41,925 bases of DNA from Flavobacteriales bacterium (GTDB taxonomy: Bacteria; Bacteroidota; Bacteroidia; Flavobacteriales; BACL11), in assembly GCA_018647945.1 (NCBI GenBank), contig JABGSE010000019.1, positions 1-41,925 on the forward strand, in the 5' to 3' direction. The notes below the pieces were generated by a model that was not told the origin of the DNA, did not search any database, and saw only the letters and a program-made list of their open reading frames with translations. The position numbers were made by a program, and so were the translations under genes. Within the stretch, counting starts at the first letter, position 1. Every line of letters starts with the position of its first letter. This document shows positions 1 through 10,116 of the stretch, in pieces.

Positions 1-606
1 AATCCATTAACAGATGAAATACAAAAGGAGATCACAGAACTATCTATTAATTCGGACAAGAAAATAATTGCTTTACTTCCTGGAAGTAGGAAGCGAGAAA
101 TAGAGATGAATTTACCTATAATGTTATCTGTTATTCCTCATTTTCTGGACTATCAATTTGTAATTGCTTCAACAGATAATATGTATGAATTATGTAGTAA
201 GATTTCAAAAAATAAAGATGTAAAAATCATAAAAGAACAGACTTATTCTGTACTTAAAAGTTCCGAGATTGCATTAGTTACTTCTGGCACTGCAACACTA
301 GAAACAGCATTTTTTAATATCCCTCAATTGGTATGTTATAAAACAGATTTTTTAACATATAACTTAGCTAAGTTATTTGTAAAGTTAAAGTGGATTTCTC
401 TCGTAAATATTATTATGGATAAAGAAGTTATATCTGAATTTATTCAGGATAGAATGACAAATAAAAATCTAAAAAAAGAGATGGATTATTTACTCTCTAA
501 AAAGGGAAGAACAAAACTTTTATCAGAATATAAAGAGTTATCATTGGTTTTAAAATCAGAAAGGGTATCTGAAAAAATATCAAATTTTATATTGCAAAAT
601 ATTTAA
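1..606 (+). CDS. lpxB: Lipid-A-disaccharide synthase LpxB, C-terminal part (cut by window start)
   Basis: The reading frame is open from base 1, so this is the last 201 residues of a gene that begins outside the window. LpxB joins UDP-2,3-diacylglucosamine and lipid X to make the lipid A disaccharide at the inner membrane. Visible family features are the LLPGSRKREI motif near the window start (glycosyltransferase family 19) and the TSGTATLETAFFNIPQLVCYK segment, the nucleotide-sugar binding region of the C-terminal half. The first internal ATG (base 106) is only a methionine inside the domain, not a start. Its TAA stop shares the palindrome TTAA with the stop of uvrB on the other strand, so the two genes converge with a 4-base overlap. 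Confidence 0.93.
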   Translation, partial: NPLTDEIQKEITELSINSDKKIIALLPGSRKREIEMNLPIMLSVIPHFLDYQFVIASTDNMYELCSKISKNKDVKIIKEQTYSVLKSSEIALVTSGTATLETAFFNIPQLVCYKTDFLTYNLAKLFVKLKWISLVNIIMDKEVISEFIQDRMTNKNLKKEMDYLLSKKGRTKLLSEYKELSLVLKSERVSEKISNFILQNI

Positions 607-2585
607 CTTTTCTTTTTAAGTTTTTCTAGTTCAACAAGTTCATCTCTCAACCTAGCCGCTTCAATAAAATTCAGGTTTGTTGCAGCTCTTTCCATTTCGG
701 TTTTTGTTAATTTTATCATTTTCTTAATCTGTTTTTCATCCATCTTACTTGTTATTGGGTCACTAACTTTAGTAACAGAATACGGATTTAAACTATCCTC
801 TATTTCACTATCAATTTTCTTTACAATTGCTTTAGGAGTAATATTGTGTTTTTTATTGTGTTGAATCTGTTTTTCTCTTCTTCTATTGGTTTCATTAATA
901 GTTCTTTGCATGGAATTTGTAGTTCTATCTGCATACATAATAACAAGTCCGTTCAGGTTTCTGGCCGCTCTTCCAGCGGTTTGCGTAAGAGCTCTTTCTG
1001 ATCTCAAAAAACCTTCTTTATCAGCATCTAAAATTGCTACCAAGCTTACTTCTGGTAAATCCAATCCTTCTCTTAGGAGATTTACTCCAATTAAAACATC
1101 AAATACCCCTTCTCTGAGTCCATGGATTATTTCTATTCTCTCTAGTGTTTCTACATCTGAATGTATGTATCGGCATTTTACAGAATATTTTGTAAGGTAT
1201 TTGGTGAGTTCTTCCGCCATTCTTTTGGTGAGAGTGGTTACCAAAACTCTTTCTTTCTTTTCAATTCTCATTCTGATTTCATCTAGTAAGTCATCAATTT
1301 GATTTTTGCTTTTCCTGATTTCTATTTTCGGATCTATAAGCCCGGTTGGCCTGATAATTTGCTCTACTATCACTCCATCACTTTTTTCCAATTCATAATC
1401 TGATGGAGTAGCACTCATATAGATAACTTGATTGTTTATGAGTTCAAATTCATCAAATTTCAGAGGCCTATTATCCATTGCTGATGGTAGACGGAAACCA
1501 TATTCTACCAAATTCTCTTTTCTAGACCTATCTCCACCATACATTGCCCTTACTTGAGGAAGTGTTACATGAGATTCATCAATTACAGTCATAAAATCTT
1601 TAGGAAAATAATCTAAAAGGCAAAATGGTCTACTTCCTTCTGCTCTACCATCAAAATACCTTGAATAGTTTTCGATTCCTGAGCAATATCCTAATTCTTT
1701 TATCATTTCCAAATCAAAATTTACTCTCTCTTCTAATCTTTTTGCTTCCTGATTCTGACCTAATTTACCAAATTCTTCTAATCGTAAAACCAAATCGTCC
1801 TGAATATCCTTTATGGAATTTTGTACTCTGTCTTTTGAGGCCACAAATATATTGGCCGGAAACACTTTTATGTAATCTACTTTCTCAATTCTTTTTGATG
1901 AAATGGGATCTATTACTTCTAATTCTTCAATTTCATTTCCCCAAAAACATATTCTGTAAGCAATATCCGAATAAGCAGGAAAAACATCTACAGTATCTCC
2001 TTTTACTCGGAAGTTTCCCCTTTCAAAATTGGCAGAAGTTCGGGTGTACAATGCTATTACAAAGGATTGTAACAATTTGTTAATTGAAATTTTATCTCCA
2101 ATATTAAGTTCTACTATTCCATTGTTAAAATCTTCCGGATTTCCGATACCATAAATACAAGAAACAGAGGAGACCACAATAATATCTTTTCTTCCTGAAA
2201 GGAGAGAGGAAGTAGTATTTAATCGGAGTTTTTCTATTTCCTTATTTATAGTTAAATCTTTTTCAATATATGTTCCTGTAGCTGGTAAGTAAGCTTCTGG
2301 TTGGTAATAATCGTAATAGGAAACAAAATATTCTACAGCATTATTAGGGAAAAATTGCTTGAACTCGGAGTAAAGTTGTGCCGCTAAAGTTTTGTTATGA
2401 CTCAATACCAAAGTTGGTCGGTTTACTTCCTGTATTACATTTGCTATTGTAAATGTTTTTCCGGAGCCAGTTACCCCAAGTAAGGTCTGATAGTCGTCTA
2501 AATTATAAAGTCCGTTTACAAGCTTTTTAATTGCTTGTGGCTGATCTCCCGTAGGAGAGTAATCAGAAGCTAATTCAAAATCCAT
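603..2585 (-). CDS. uvrB: UvrABC system protein B (excision nuclease helicase subunit)
   Basis: UvrB is the damage-verification helicase of nucleotide excision repair; it is loaded by UvrA and then recruits UvrC. The 660-residue length is normal. In order one sees Walker A GVTGSGKT (37-44), the beta-hairpin region around YYDYYQPEAYLP, the DEAH-like motif in VIDESHVTLPQVRAMYGG, helicase motifs V/VI (GVNLLREGLDLPEVSLVAILDADKEGFLRS, then QTAGRAARN), and a C-terminal UVR domain (about 622-656) that contacts UvrC. The ATG at 2585 gives the conserved MDFELASDYSPTGDQPQAI start. It lies 3 bases after the stop of the DUF349 gene, so it is probably co-transcribed from upstream. No SOS-box-like site was identified. 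Confidence 0.97.
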   Translation of the reverse strand: MDFELASDYSPTGDQPQAIKKLVNGLYNLDDYQTLLGVTGSGKTFTIANVIQEVNRPTLVLSHNKTLAAQLYSEFKQFFPNNAVEYFVSYYDYYQPEAYLPATGTYIEKDLTINKEIEKLRLNTTSSLLSGRKDIIVVSSVSCIYGIGNPEDFNNGIVELNIGDKISINKLLQSFVIALYTRTSANFERGNFRVKGDTVDVFPAYSDIAYRICFWGNEIEELEVIDPISSKRIEKVDYIKVFPANIFVASKDRVQNSIKDIQDDLVLRLEEFGKLGQNQEAKRLEERVNFDLEMIKELGYCSGIENYSRYFDGRAEGSRPFCLLDYFPKDFMTVIDESHVTLPQVRAMYGGDRSRKENLVEYGFRLPSAMDNRPLKFDEFELINNQVIYMSATPSDYELEKSDGVIVEQIIRPTGLIDPKIEIRKSKNQIDDLLDEIRMRIEKKERVLVTTLTKRMAEELTKYLTKYSVKCRYIHSDVETLERIEIIHGLREGVFDVLIGVNLLREGLDLPEVSLVAILDADKEGFLRSERALTQTAGRAARNLNGLVIMYADRTTNSMQRTINETNRRREKQIQHNKKHNITPKAIVKKIDSEIEDSLNPYSVTKVSDPITSKMDEKQIKKMIKLTKTEMERAATNLNFIEAARLRDELVELEKLKKKS

Positions 2586-2588
2586 TTT

Positions 2589-4364
2589 CTAGATTTTGTT
2601 AATTAGAGTCAACTTTTTCTTTAACTTCTCAATTTCTAATTTTGAGTTTTCAATTTTCTTTTCTACTTCCTTTTTTAAAGATTCTGTTCCTTTCCCTTTA
2701 CCAAAAAATGAAATATTATTTTCGTATTGAAGTATTGATTTGTGGATTTGATCAATTTTTTTTCTGATAAAATCTTTTTCAGAATTCAATTGCTTTAGAT
2801 TTCCTTTTAGAGAGTCAACTTTAAGTTGGAATTGTATTTTTTCTTTTTCTGAATTATCAACCTTTAATTTTTTGTAAAAAGAAGATATAACATTACTAAA
2901 CTCATCATTTATTTTAATTGATTTTATAGGGACATGACCTAGAGAGTTCCATTTTACAGAGAATTCCTTTAACTGAATAATATCTTTTTTTGCGTCTTCA
3001 GTAATTTTAAACTTCTTCACATTTTTCAACAAAGCATTTTTCGATATTAAGTTTTTATCTCTTTGTTTATTTATTTCTTTGTAATGTTTTTTTCGGGCAT
3101 TAAAAAAAGTATCACAAGATTTCCTGAACCTTTTCCAAACATCACTTGATAAGTTATTTGGAACAAATGGAGTTTTTTTCCAATCATCTTGTAATTTTAT
3201 AAATTGCTTTGATGAGTTTTCCCAATCTGTTGAACTTTGTAAGTTTTCTGCTTTTTTTGCAATGTCAATTTTAACTTGCAAATTATTACTATTTTCATCT
3301 TTTCTGTTCTTGTAAAAATCATTTTTATTTTGATTGAAAATATTTATTGATTCCCTATAAGTGCTCCATGCAATTTTATTATCTTTTTTATCTATAGGAG
3401 AGGAGTTTTTCCAATCTGACATTAAAATTTGTAATTCCTTTATTCTATTTTGCCAATCAGTATGAGTGTTTGATTCACCCAAAGATAACTTATTTATCTT
3501 TTTACAGATTTCATTTTTTTTGTGAAGATTTTTTTTGAACATATCCTTCTTTTTTAGGAAATACTCATTTTTCTTTTTGTTTATTTTTTTTGTAGTAATT
3601 TGGAATATCTCCCAGATCTCCTCTCTTTTCTCCCTCTCTACAGGACCAACATTTTTCCAATGTTCGTGTAATTCTTGTAAACTATCAAACATTTTATTTA
3701 TTGACTTTTCAGAAAGTAATGCTTCTGCTTTTTCACAAATTCTTGTTTTTTCTTCCAAATTTCTTTTAAAATCTAAATCTCTTAAATCCTTATTTATTTT
3801 GATATAGTCATAAAATAATTCCACATGATGATGGTAGGATTGCCACAAATTATTGTTTTCAGAAAGAGGAACATTTCCTGTTTCTCTCCATTTTTTCTGT
3901 AATTCTCCTAATTTTTCGAAAGTAGTTTTTATTGATTCTTCTTGTTTTGATAACTCATCAATTTCCTCAATAATTTTCTTTTTTATTATGAAGTTTTTTT
4001 GTTCTTCAACCTCTCTATTTTTTCTGTAATCAGCTTTTAATTTTCTGAATTTATTATTTCCAGATTTAAACTTTATTTCTAAAGGATGAAGTGGATTAAT
4101 TTTTTCTTCCACAACTTCTTCTTCTGTTTTATTTTCTTCTTTTAGATGTAAATCATGTAACTTTTTGTAGAAACTAATTTTTAATTCGTCAATTTGCTTT
4201 GAAACAGAATAAGGTTTTGAAGTGTTAATAATCTCTTCTTGTTTCTCAACTAACTCTTCTAGAGATAAGTCATCAAAATTAAGTTTGACTTCCTTATTTT
4301 CTGTTTCAGATATAGTGACATCTAACTCTTTACTGTCCAATTCTTTTTCCTTTTCGTTTAACAT
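2589..4364 (-). CDS. DUF349 repeat protein
   Basis: A 591-residue, lysine- and glutamate-rich cytoplasmic protein built of five tandem DUF349 repeats. Each carries a conserved tryptophan followed by a short V/P-containing turn and a second aromatic helix: W159 (WRETGNVP), W236 (WKNVGPV), W318 (WKNSSPI), W395 (WKKTPFVP) and W472 (WNSLGHVP), spaced 77, 82, 77 and 77 residues. The first 90 residues are acidic and low-complexity; residues about 495-591 look like a coiled coil. The molecular function of the family is unknown. In Bacteroidota it commonly sits near aroE, as it does here. There is no signal peptide. The gene is followed by uvrB after 3 bases and has its own candidate promoter in the 33-base gap behind aroE. 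Confidence 0.88.
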   Translation of the reverse strand: MLNEKEKELDSKELDVTISETENKEVKLNFDDLSLEELVEKQEEIINTSKPYSVSKQIDELKISFYKKLHDLHLKEENKTEEEVVEEKINPLHPLEIKFKSGNNKFRKLKADYRKNREVEEQKNFIIKKKIIEEIDELSKQEESIKTTFEKLGELQKKWRETGNVPLSENNNLWQSYHHHVELFYDYIKINKDLRDLDFKRNLEEKTRICEKAEALLSEKSINKMFDSLQELHEHWKNVGPVEREKREEIWEIFQITTKKINKKKNEYFLKKKDMFKKNLHKKNEICKKINKLSLGESNTHTDWQNRIKELQILMSDWKNSSPIDKKDNKIAWSTYRESINIFNQNKNDFYKNRKDENSNNLQVKIDIAKKAENLQSSTDWENSSKQFIKLQDDWKKTPFVPNNLSSDVWKRFRKSCDTFFNARKKHYKEINKQRDKNLISKNALLKNVKKFKITEDAKKDIIQLKEFSVKWNSLGHVPIKSIKINDEFSNVISSFYKKLKVDNSEKEKIQFQLKVDSLKGNLKQLNSEKDFIRKKIDQIHKSILQYENNISFFGKGKGTESLKKEVEKKIENSKLEIEKLKKKLTLINKI

Positions 4365-4384
4365 TTCTGTGGTTTTTTATAGTA

Positions 4385-4392
4385 CAAATCTA
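4385..4392 (-). promoter_or_regulatory. Candidate promoter -7 element for DUF349-uvrB
   Basis: The minus strand reads TAGATTTG, an exact match to the Bacteroidota -7 consensus TAnnTTTG, ending 20 bases before the DUF349 start codon. A TTG lies 24 bases upstream of it, just outside the usual 17-23 spacing. It would let DUF349 and uvrB be transcribed without the upstream aroE genes. Confidence 0.45.
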
Positions 4393-4397
4393 CAAAA

Positions 4398-5123
4398 TTA
4401 TATAATATCAGAATTCCAAATTCGCCATGATTCTTCAGCTTGTAAATAAAGCATTGATTCACCATTTTTTATTTCACAATTATTCCTAATTCCATAGGAT
4501 AAAAAAGTACTTACTTTAGGATTGTATACTAAATCGAAAAGTAAATGTTTCGAATTGAGAAATTGATATGGAATATTAGGTAATTCTGATGTTTTAGGAT
4601 AAGTACCTAAAGGTGTAGTATTGATAATTATATCAGAACTCTCCATTATCTCTTTATCGATATTATGATAGTCAAAATAAGTATTTCTACTTACTATTTT
4701 ATAATTTACATTTAATTTACTCAAAACAAACTGAATTGCTTTTGACGCTCCTCCATTTCCAAGAATTAAAGCTGTTTTTCTGTTTTTCAGAATAGGAGTT
4801 ATACTTTTTTCAAAACCAATAATATCTGTGTTAAATCCATGTAATTTTCCATCAATAATCTTAATTGTATTTACTGCTCCAATTTCTTTAGCATCCTCCG
4901 AAATAAAGTCTAAAAAAGGAGTTACAGAGCTTTTGTAAGGGATTGTTATATTTAATCCTGAAACATTATTTGTTTTTATTAGATATTTAATTTTAGAGAT
5001 ATCATTTATTTCAAAATTAAGATATTGGCAATCCGAAATATTTTCTTTGTAAAACTTTTCTTGAAAATATTCTTGTGAAAAAGAATGAGAAAGGGTTTTT
5101 CCAATCAGTCCAAAGGTTTTCAT
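4398..5123 (-). CDS. aroE: Shikimate dehydrogenase (NADP+)
   Basis: AroE reduces 3-dehydroshikimate to shikimate with NADPH in aromatic amino acid synthesis. The 241-residue protein is slightly short for the family but has all the landmarks: the substrate-binding SHSFSQ (12-17), the catalytic lysine K64 in NITIPYKS, N98/D100 in HGFNTDIIGF (the catalytic K/D pair), the glycine-rich NADP loop GNGGAS (122-127), INTTPLGTYP, and the C-terminal NGESMLYLQAEESWRIW segment. The start overlaps the stop of the upstream gene by one base (TAATG), indicating translational coupling within the comA operon. Confidence 0.96.
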   Translation of the reverse strand: MKTFGLIGKTLSHSFSQEYFQEKFYKENISDCQYLNFEINDISKIKYLIKTNNVSGLNITIPYKSSVTPFLDFISEDAKEIGAVNTIKIIDGKLHGFNTDIIGFEKSITPILKNRKTALILGNGGASKAIQFVLSKLNVNYKIVSRNTYFDYHNIDKEIMESSDIIINTTPLGTYPKTSELPNIPYQFLNSKHLLFDLVYNPKVSTFLSYGIRNNCEIKNGESMLYLQAEESWRIWNSDII

Positions 5124-5599
5124 TATACCTTTTTAAGTAAAAAATTTAAAGCTTCAATTCCAGAAACGGATAAAATAGTAACAATAATTCCTGAAATCAT
5201 GACTCCTAAAACAACTGATAAAAACGCTTTCTTTTTAGGGATATTGAAAAGCCAAGCTGCCAAACTTCCTGTGTACGCTCCTGTTATTGGAAGTGGAATC
5301 ATTACAAAAATCATGAGTCCCCAAAATCCCCATTTCTCAATTTTCCCTTCTAATTTATTTCTTGTTTTAACAACAATTTTGTCAAACAGTTTTTTATAAA
5401 GATTTAAATTTAGAAACAAAGGATGTAAAAACTCTAAGAAGAGATATACAATAGGAAAAGCTAAAATATTTACTGACACACAAACAAAGTATGCGACAAA
5501 AGGGTTTACATCATTATAGATAGCGTATGGAATCCCTCCTCTAAGTTCAGAAATAGGTAAAATACTCCATAAGATTGCTTCAAAAATTGGGTTATTCAT
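5123..5599 (-). CDS. Small multidrug export family membrane protein (COG2426-like)
   Basis: A 158-residue integral membrane protein with about four hydrophobic segments. The motif LPISELRGGIPYAI near the N-terminus, a central SVNILAFPIVYLFLEFL helix, and GFWGLMIFVMIPLPITGAYTGSLAAWL are typical of the family annotated as small multidrug export protein (Sm_multidrug_ex). That name comes from weak early evidence; the real substrate is unknown. The P-x-T-G-A re-entrant segment recalls the DedA/SNARE-associated fold, so phospholipid or ion transport is an alternative. The ATG directly abuts the stop of the comA-like gene, and its own stop overlaps the aroE start. Confidence 0.82.
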   Translation of the reverse strand: MNNPIFEAILWSILPISELRGGIPYAIYNDVNPFVAYFVCVSVNILAFPIVYLFLEFLHPLFLNLNLYKKLFDKIVVKTRNKLEGKIEKWGFWGLMIFVMIPLPITGAYTGSLAAWLFNIPKKKAFLSVVLGVMISGIIVTILSVSGIEALNFLLKKV

Positions 5600-6364
5600 T
5601 TATGATTTTTTTAAGTAGTCAAAGAAAGTATCTCCTCTGAGTCCAATTCTTAAGGTTTCTAGTGGTATTACTTCATCCCAAGAAATGTTACCTAAATTTA
5701 CATTAGGACCTAAAAGTTTAATAAACCAAACTTGCTGTGGTTTTTTTGGAGCTTCCCACAATATTTTTTCTGTTGGAATTTGTGTTAAAATTTCATCAAT
5801 TAAGTCAGATCTTACCTCGCCACCGCTTCTGTAAATACCTACATTTCCCCCTTCCCTGGCCTCTGCAATTACTTTCCAGGCACCAGCATCTAATTCTTTT
5901 TGCATTAACTCAATCCATTTGTAAGGAGCTATTAATTTTTTTTCATCTTTTGATCCTACTTCAGAAACCACTAAAAATTCTTCTGCCAAATCTGAAATAT
6001 ACTTACATTTTTTAACATGTTCTAATTCAATCGATCCATCAGAAACTTCACACATTGAAAGGTTCCATTTTCTGAGTAAATCCTTGAATTCTTCATACAT
6101 ATCTCTAATGATGAAAGCTTCAAATAATGTTCCTCCCAAATATACCATTAAGCCTGCATCCTGATAAAGTTTTATTTTAGTTTCAATATGAGGAGAAATA
6201 GCAGAAGTTCCAAAACCAAGTTTTACAATATCGGTATGTGGTCCGCACATATCAATAAAATTCTTAGTGTCATTAATGCTCAATCCCTTATCCATCATCA
6301 TGGTAAGTCCATGTTCTCTAGGTTTTTTCTCTCTATTTGGTATGTCTGTTAAAAAGAAGTTCAT
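5600..6364 (-). CDS. comA: Phosphosulfolactate synthase-like protein (ComA family)
   Basis: ComA-family TIM-barrel enzymes add sulfite to phosphoenolpyruvate to give phosphosulfolactate, first known from archaeal coenzyme M synthesis. The protein shows the family pattern: KPREHGLTMMMDKGLS, DIVKLGFGTS, GGTLFEAF, CEVSDGS, VVSEVGSKDEK, WKVIAEAREGGNVG and ILWEAPKKPQQVWFI. Bacteroidota lack coenzyme M, so the product is probably used otherwise, for example as a cysteate or sulfonate precursor; that is inference. I chose the ATG at 6364 (254 residues, MNFFLTDIP...), which matches where the domain begins and leaves a short leader after the -7 element. An ATG at 6382 (260 residues) would be nearly leaderless; a longer TTG form from 6445 would include the promoter. 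No comB or comC homologue is in the window. Confidence 0.85.
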   Translation of the reverse strand: MNFFLTDIPNREKKPREHGLTMMMDKGLSINDTKNFIDMCGPHTDIVKLGFGTSAISPHIETKIKLYQDAGLMVYLGGTLFEAFIIRDMYEEFKDLLRKWNLSMCEVSDGSIELEHVKKCKYISDLAEEFLVVSEVGSKDEKKLIAPYKWIELMQKELDAGAWKVIAEAREGGNVGIYRSGGEVRSDLIDEILTQIPTEKILWEAPKKPQQVWFIKLLGPNVNLGNISWDEVIPLETLRIGLRGDTFFDYLKKS

Positions 6365-6387
6365 ATCGTTATTATTTTTCATTAATG

Positions 6388-6395
6388 CAAAGATA
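6388..6395 (-). promoter_or_regulatory. Candidate promoter -7 element for the comA-uvrB operon
   Basis: The minus strand reads TATCTTTG, an exact TAnnTTTG. It ends 23 bases before the chosen comA start (6364) and only 5 before the alternative ATG at 6382. No TTG lies at the expected -33 distance. Confidence 0.45.
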
Positions 6396-6415
6396 GCAGA
6401 ATTTAGATTATTTCT

Positions 6416-6423
6416 TAGTTTTG
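6416..6423 (+). promoter_or_regulatory. Candidate promoter -7 element for glmM
   Basis: TAGTTTTG matches TAnnTTTG exactly and ends 26 bases before the glmM ATG. It points away from the comA element 20 bases to its left, so the two operons share one short divergent control region (6365-6449). Confidence 0.45.
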
Positions 6424-6449
6424 TATCGTTAAAATACAAATACAATTAT

Positions 6450-9078: not shown

Positions 9079-10116
9079 ATGAAAAAACTACTACTTTTAC
9101 TTTGTTTGCCAATTTTTACTTTTGCTCAGCAAACCTATGTTCCTGATGATAATTTTGAACAAGAATTAATTGATCTTGGCATAGATCCAGACACAATCCT
9201 TAATGATTATGTACCTACAGTAAATATTAATGTAATTGATACATTAGACCTTTCTTTTTTAGGGATAAGTGATTTAACTGGAATAGAAGATTTCACATCT
9301 TTAGTTGGTATAGAGTGTAATAATAACAATCTTACTTCCTTAGATTTAAGTAACAATACAAATTTAACATATGTATATTGTTCGTATAACAATCTTACTT
9401 CCTTAGATATTAGTTCGTCTCCTAATCTTGGATATTTAATTTGTTCTGACAATCAATTAACCTCCTTAGTTCTTACTAATAATTCATCTATTTTTCAATT
9501 CAGATGTGAAAATAATAATTTATCTACTCTAGATCTTTCTACTGTTTCCGTTACCTTTGATTTAGATTGTTCTTTTAATCAACTTACATCATTAGATCTT
9601 AGTGGGTGTTATAATTTATTTACACTTAATTGTTCTAATAACCTTTTAGATTCTTTGGATGTTAGTATGCTCACTTCACTATTTGGTTTGTTTTGTTCGG
9701 AGAATAATATAAAGGAGTTAGATGTAAGTAATAATATATTTCTGATTGGATTATATTGCGATAAGAATCAATTACATACTTTAGATATAAGTCATGGAAA
9801 TCTACAGAATGTATCACATGATGGTTGGTCGTATATGTTTGATGTAAGAACAAACCCATTAAATTGCATTAAAGTTGCTGCAACTGACCTTAATTGGGCT
9901 AATAGTAATTTAGATTACCCAGCATACATTAATAATACTATGTACTTTTCTGATAGTTGCATTCCTCCACCTGTTAATATTACAGAAGTAGTTTCTACTA
10001 AAAAACTAATAAAAATTATTGATGTTTTAGGTAGAAAGACAAAAGAGTTAAAGAATATCCCTTTATTCTATATTTATGATGATAGTTCGGTAGAAAAGAA
10101 GATTATTTTCGAGTAA
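9079..10116 (+). CDS. Secreted leucine-rich repeat protein with type IX secretion C-terminal signal
   Basis: A 345-residue exported protein. Residues 1-17 are a Sec signal peptide (MKKLLLLLCLPIFTFAQ). A cap domain (18-74) includes YVPDDNFEQELIDLG and SDLTGIEDF, commonly found ahead of Bacteroidota LRR arrays. Eight 21-residue repeats follow (75-242), ending with a cap containing NPLNCIKV and FSDSC. The last 40 or so residues, KLIKIIDVLGRKTKEL then PLFYIYDDSSVEKKIIFE, resemble the type A sorting signal of the type IX secretion system in a short marine form. I infer that it is delivered to the cell surface or released; the ligand is unknown. The 3' end overlaps the convergent nhaC gene by 14 bases. 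Confidence 0.87.
   Translation: MKKLLLLLCLPIFTFAQQTYVPDDNFEQELIDLGIDPDTILNDYVPTVNINVIDTLDLSFLGISDLTGIEDFTSLVGIECNNNNLTSLDLSNNTNLTYVYCSYNNLTSLDISSSPNLGYLICSDNQLTSLVLTNNSSIFQFRCENNNLSTLDLSTVSVTFDLDCSFNQLTSLDLSGCYNLFTLNCSNNLLDSLDVSMLTSLFGLFCSENNIKELDVSNNIFLIGLYCDKNQLHTLDISHGNLQNVSHDGWSYMFDVRTNPLNCIKVAATDLNWANSNLDYPAYINNTMYFSDSCIPPPVNITEVVSTKKLIKIIDVLGRKTKELKNIPLFYIYDDSSVEKKIIFE
9301..9804 (+). repeat. Eight 21-residue leucine-rich repeats (63-base coding units)
   Basis: The repeat consensus is LxxLxCsxNqLtsLDlSnnxx, with a cysteine at position 6 of every unit. The units are L75, L96, L117, I138, T159, L180, L201 and L222, with no insertion. The DNA repeats have diverged except for the segment encoding NNLTSLD, which is nearly identical in units 1 and 2 (around 9328 and 9391). 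Confidence 0.85.

Follow-up and report, generated by a model that had tools for sequence, protein, structure and literature searches.

The window, i.e., the whole stretch of 41,925 nucleotides analysed here, corresponds to contig C43 in a genome of 1.62 Mb, which is split into 99 contigs and 97.8% complete. It carries, on the reverse strand at positions 5600..6382, a comA-like gene of the (R)-2-phospho-3-sulfolactate synthase family, assigned from its Pfam domain (PF02679), PDB matches, fold and conserved residues. The open frame spans positions 5600-6445, with ATG 6382 or ATG 6364 as the probable start, and the product would accordingly have 260 or 254 amino acid residues. The genes that follow, all on the reverse strand and separated by gaps of 0-33 bases or overlapping by one base, code for a membrane protein of 158 amino acid residues (5123..5599, PF06695, 134.9 bits), the shikimate dehydrogenase AroE (4398..5123, PF08501, 72.6 bits; TIGR00507, 179.2 bits, the cut-off of 200.2 not being reached), a DUF349 protein (2589..4364, PF03993, 235.5 bits in five stretches) and UvrB (603..2585, NF003673, 1020.9 bits, over the cut-off). 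Gene order and families are those of the original prediction, in which comA heads an operon with a membrane protein, aroE, DUF349 and uvrB. Divergently upstream of comA lies a phosphohexomutase gene (TIGR03990, 517.9 bits, over the cut-off), and the promoter of the operon would sit in the 67 intergenic bases (6383..6449, from the open reading frame coordinates) between the two. Elsewhere in the window, positions 1-606 (forward strand) encode the C-terminal part of LpxB, the lipid-A-disaccharide synthase (113 bits), whose gene is truncated where the contig ends. The product of positions 9079-10116 (forward strand), which has a leucine-rich-repeat match, has a C-terminal tail that resembles that of the product encoded at positions 3923-4540 (reverse strand) of locus L132, on contig C69 of the same genome; by eye, both contain DVLGR and YDD...EKKI, possibly a secretion tail.

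PF02679 is the one Pfam domain of the ComA product (288.7 bits versus a cut-off of 25.2). Residues 16-251 match positions 2-243 of the 243 of the profile, so that the whole domain is present, and no other PF02679 match was obtained in the genome. The score against TIGR03849, the archaeal ComA equivalog of NCBIfam, was 255 bits and thus fell short of the 280 bits set as its cut-off. A sequence search of the PDB retrieved the Bacillus subtilis protein (1U83, E 4.6e-56, 40.2% identity over 249 columns) and the Methanocaldococcus jannaschii ComA (1QWG, E 1.1e-46, 41.6% identity over 231 columns), the only other significant matches being chains near 1QWG. The same two structures came first and second in a PDB fold search with an AlphaFold2 model built from 37 sequences (pLDDT 84.5): 1U83 with E 4e-24 and 1QWG with E 6e-24, with TM values, normalised by target, of 0.94 and 0.88, respectively. 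Among the matches listed, the closest relatives are metagenome-assembled genomes annotated as Flavobacteriales or Cryomorphaceae, and in the ComA tree, in which rows L087 and L090 are on very long branches and probably in a wrong frame, the rows of the same class are all on one side of a branch (99/94).

Conservation was counted in an alignment (A1) of 37 Bacteroidota rows, with L087 and L090 translated at the coordinates given by the search. 1U83 and 1QWG are identical in 101 columns, 69 of which are kept in the window's ComA. Forty-six columns with polar, charged or aromatic residues are identical in both solved enzymes, and at 22 of these, all polar or charged, every one of the 37 Bacteroidota rows has the same residue (in M. 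jannaschii numbering, Asp20, Asp40, Lys43, Thr48, Lys60, Thr76, Glu79, Glu103, Ser105, Glu133, Lys137, Glu168, Arg170, Glu171, Glu205, Lys209, Asn224, Asn227, Glu237, Arg240, Arg244 and Asp246). Lys137 is presumably catalytic. The other 24 columns vary among the Bacteroidota rows, and the window's protein keeps seven and changes 17. A loss of ComA residues in the alignment would have spoken against a ComA-like enzyme, and the 22 shared polar and charged residues are intact; together with the Pfam score, the about 40% identity to both solved enzymes and the same predicted fold, this upholds the assignment. Judged by its sequence, the gene is an intact, real member of the ComA family, and its product looks like a genuine phosphosulfolactate synthase, its catalytic activity being predicted.

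The proximity of comA and aroE was surveyed in the window and in the 80 top-scoring relatives from a total of at least 590, a biased set of 81 loci. Since aroE is encoded on the same strand as comA, with zero to two open reading frames in between, in 81 of 81 loci, the link is not a matter of chance. In 69 of the 80 loci from relatives, comA follows a TPR gene, an arrangement not seen in the window. In the phylum sample, searched with in-class aroE queries, aroE was observed at most 1.5 kb from comA in 10 of 15 same-class loci and in none of the 15 loci from other classes. Given these other-class loci without a nearby aroE, we attribute no metabolic meaning to the adjacency. Use of PEP as a common denominator of ComA and AroE, hinted at in the original prediction, was rejected, while the conserved adjacency itself stands; AroE itself is not known to use PEP. 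None of the conserved operon partners is known to act in a sulfolactate pathway.

The position between comA and aroE is occupied, in the 81 loci, by a gene of a DUF368 cluster (64 loci), a DedA-type gene (two loci) or a PF06695 gene (two loci, namely the window and L002, which is closest to it), and is empty in 13. One gene of the DUF368 cluster was tested (L003, 8766-9665) and matched PF04018, Undecaprenyl phosphate translocase-like, with 270 bits; one DedA-type gene was tested and matched PF09335 with 77.7 bits, the other clustering with it and being assigned by eye. The gene at positions 8811-9464 of L062 is an example of the DedA type. The product of 5123..5599 matched PF06695 alone, with no DUF368 or DedA assignment, and the profile search gave no DUF368 (PF04018) match in the window's genome. 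Its structure model was too poor to be used (pLDDT 43.6). DUF368 and DedA proteins are described as candidate C55-P translocases (PMC9876793) and PF06695 as a distant homologue of DedA (PMC7818093). The sharing of one slot by three families makes the PF06695 protein a candidate too, and on this and on its homology to DedA it is probably an undecaprenyl-phosphate translocase.

We were able to identify a comB homologue elsewhere in the same genome, on contig C69 (29115-29783; PF04029, 238 bits versus a cut-off of 26.4, E 4.9e-71). Its product reaches none of the NCBIfam ComB cut-offs listed and matches, in the PDB, proteins named probable 2-phosphosulfolactate phosphatase. The gene is directly behind gcvT, which it overlaps by four bases (locus L132, 7513-9311), and is unlinked to comA. 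A gcvT gene is likewise at most 0.7 kb from comB in all 16 further ComB loci examined, which, being the best-scoring ones, are a biased set. The original prediction, that neither comB nor comC is beside comA, describes the locus correctly, but the missing next step that it implied does not hold. The puzzle of a ComA without ComB largely dissolves, because the homologue is on C69; a search of the genome for both later enzymes, as had been proposed, thus yielded a ComB and, for PF02615, the family of the ComC sulfolactate dehydrogenase, no match.

The pairing of ComA and ComB was observed throughout a phylum sample of 247 genomes, in which the lists of the two proteins were compared by hand. ComA was detected over the cut-off in 64 genomes (a 65th match, in G019, was below it) and ComB in 134, and ComB is present in all 64 ComA-positive genomes versus 70 of the 183 ComA-negative ones (Fisher p 1e-21, with genomes counted individually and kinship ignored). 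Leaving out the window's genome, 23 genomes of the same class or order have ComA, and precisely these 23 have ComB. Seven genomes (G003, G008, G033, G081, G151, G195 and G199) have an additional ComA gene that is full or nearly so. PF04029 without ComA in 70 of 183 genomes indicates that the ComB family may act on other substrates; it is the pairing with ComA that points to 2-phosphosulfolactate as the probable substrate of the C69 protein.

Regarding later steps, the original prediction had considered cysteate for capnines. SulA, the cysteate-acyl transferase (CFAT), in which a lysine replaces the alanine of SPT, was not found in the window's genome; the best match to a SulA query (199 bits, 36% identity) is a gene on contig C96 for glycine C-acetyltransferase (TIGR01822, 697.9 bits, over the cut-off), the sole alpha-oxoamine synthase found to belong to this genome, and the sole further match, on C31, had 18 bits. 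The profile search did not retrieve the cysteate synthase TIGR03844 from this genome; TIGR03844 was also rejected as a general probe for cysteate synthases, since it misses genomes with the CapA type. Capnine synthesis was rejected for the window's genome, in which no SulA was found.

Using ComB as a proxy for ComA, we searched the window's own family (f1; 37 genomes including the window's, many of them incomplete) and 23 other genomes of the same order. Of the 37 family members, 27 have ComB over the cut-off and four, all of genus g131, have SulA, while SulA was detected in 19 of the 23 others; within the window's own genus the counts are six of six for ComB and none of six for SulA, the five other genomes being 79-98% complete. 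PF02615 was detected in one of the 60 genomes searched, the window's among them. ComB, and to judge from the pairing ComA as well, has thus been retained in genomes that lack SulA, although in the window's genome, 97.8% complete in 99 contigs, single absences may be gaps.

For many relatives, on the other hand, the proposal of cysteate for capnines does fit. An alpha-oxoamine synthase in a band of 275-313 bits is present in 23 of 23 ComA-positive genomes of the same class and in eight of eight ComA-negative genomes of the same order, and this band turned out to be SulA, 10 of the 23 ComA-positive genomes having been checked against SulA. One band gene from a ComA-positive genome has the SulA lysine motif and matches the SulA/CFAT structures 7U7H (605 bits) and 28EH (602 bits), and one from a ComA-negative genome gave 575 and 699 bits, respectively. 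PF02615 is present in 21 of the 23 same-class ComA-positive genomes, versus none of the eight ComA-negative genomes of the same order and none of four TIGR03844-positive ones; in other classes of the phylum it was observed in three of 14 ComA-positive genomes tested. For the one PF02615 gene tested, the best NCBIfam model was L-sulfolactate dehydrogenase, with 263.6 bits, well below the cut-off of 500.

The neighbourhood of SulA, inspected in 34 genomes, differs with the ComB status, a pattern that had first emerged in 16 of these genomes. A CysK-like gene at most 2 kb from SulA was observed in six of seven genomes without ComA and ComB and in three of six known only to be without ComB, but in none of 21 ComB-positive genomes, 10 of which are known to be ComA-positive and four of which (G049, G271, G296 and G301) have a contig end at most 1.5 kb from SulA on one side. 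One of these CysK-like genes is the CapA cysteate synthase (NF053679, 632 bits, cut-off 600). A CapA-type gene beside SulA is thus seen in nine of 13 ComB-negative versus none of 21 ComB-positive genomes (Fisher p 1.4e-5, kinship ignored), and in the four remaining SulA-bearing ComB-negative genomes CapA is not beside SulA either. Locus L190 (5134-7495) and similar loci in genomes of the same order are examples of CapA near SulA. This co-occurrence and gene order suggests that ComA and ComB, with or without ComC, take the place of CapA as the source of cysteate in these relatives, and in many related bacteria the ComA-ComB pair may feed sulfonolipid synthesis. Eight genomes of the same order with ComB over the cut-off and SulA are all without PF02615, which means that another dehydrogenase would be needed there if ComA and ComB give cysteate. 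Our search of the literature yielded no paper joining "phosphosulfolactate" and "sulfonolipid".

For the window's organism, which has the ComB-family phosphatase that the pathway calls for, we consider it rather probable that ComA and the unlinked ComB make sulfolactate as the end product. ComA would condense PEP with sulfite, its presumed second substrate, to (R)-2-phospho-3-sulfolactate, and dephosphorylation by the C69 phosphatase would yield (R)-3-sulfolactate. This is most likely the last step of the pathway in this Flavobacteriales lineage with small genomes, where sulfolactate might be retained as a solute or leave the cell, by analogy with the spores of B. subtilis. An end product at this point is the simplest reading because ComB is kept where SulA is missing, and it agrees with a genome in which no SulA and no ComC-family gene was found. 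Weighing against a ComA-ComB pathway are the unlinked genes, the scores of ComA below the TIGR03849 cut-off and of ComB below the NCBIfam cut-offs, and the change in 17 of 46 columns. A sulfolactate dehydrogenase of another family, moreover, could extend the pathway beyond sulfolactate. Should it do so with the help of an aminotransferase, ComA and ComB would feed cysteate here too, for a product other than capnine; the eight ComB- and SulA-bearing genomes of the same order without PF02615 call for just such a dehydrogenase if they make cysteate, but with no SulA match in the window's genome and no consumer of cysteate found (SulA alone was looked for), we regard this extension as unlikely. 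That capnine-type sulfonolipids are made after all, SulA and ComC having been lost in assembly gaps, draws on the presence of SulA in four of 37 family members and 19 of 23 other genomes of the order, and is made very improbable by five further genomes of the genus, 79-98% complete, that show no SulA, as well as by the completeness of the window's own (97.8%).

A departure from phosphosulfolactate synthesis altogether also has to be weighed. The plant relative HSA32 has reportedly been proposed to have another role, and the score below the TIGR03849 cut-off, the separation from comB and the conserved place beside aroE instead would all suit a ComA-family protein with a changed function. The 22 shared polar and charged residues that are kept and the strict co-occurrence with ComB argue for the original function, and we hold such a change to be improbable. 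Xanthobacter-type synthesis of coenzyme M, a bacterial pathway, also begins with a ComA homologue and needs no ComB; nevertheless, the recurrent neighbours of comA are of other kinds and ComB does co-occur, so a first step of that pathway is scarcely credible here. Sulfolactate as an end product can be placed in a broader picture, in which CapA, encoded beside SulA, and the unlinked ComA, ComB and, where present, ComC, leading from PEP and sulfite via sulfolactate and sulfopyruvate, would be interchangeable sources of cysteate for sulfonolipids in Bacteroidota, while the window's lineage, in whose family hardly any member has SulA, would have kept ComA and ComB and now make sulfolactate itself, and PF06695 would be a third translocase family. 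We put this combined picture forward tentatively, as somewhat short of probable.

As a rule, comA is interpreted as a gene for coenzyme M synthesis; in Bacteroidota it is part of a widespread and strictly paired ComA-ComB set. If the pathway proposed for the window is correct, small-genome Flavobacteriales, which we assume to be marine, would be a bacterial source of a sulfonate used by other bacteria. If, in relatives with SulA, the pair takes over from cysteate synthase, it would supply the opening step towards sulfonolipids in lineages whose SulA has no CapA beside it.

Compared with known systems, the window's ComA shares family, fold and the 22 polar and charged residues with M. jannaschii ComA (1QWG). 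Archaeal ComA serves coenzyme M, whereas here no later coenzyme M gene is beside comA. The B. subtilis YitD/YitC pair (1U83) is alike in combining ComA with ComB and in its expected product, sulfolactate, but yitCD form one sporulation operon, whereas comA (with aroE) and comB (with gcvT) are here in separate conserved neighbourhoods. The yitCD genes were inferred to make phosphosulfolactate, and sulfolactate is given as 5% of the dry weight of B. subtilis spores, according to PMC517825. The CapA-SulA module (NF053679; SulA 7U7H/28EH) is likewise a sulfonate-making route of Bacteroidota, and the CapA and ComA-ComB routes may both provide cysteate in different lineages. The module differs in that it starts from L-phosphoserine, as described in PMC11211663, and ComA from PEP, in that SulA was not found in the window's genome, and in that CapA beside SulA was seen in ComB-negative genomes alone. 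The window's pathway is of a known kind, with a new member in this organism, where it most likely serves to make sulfolactate.
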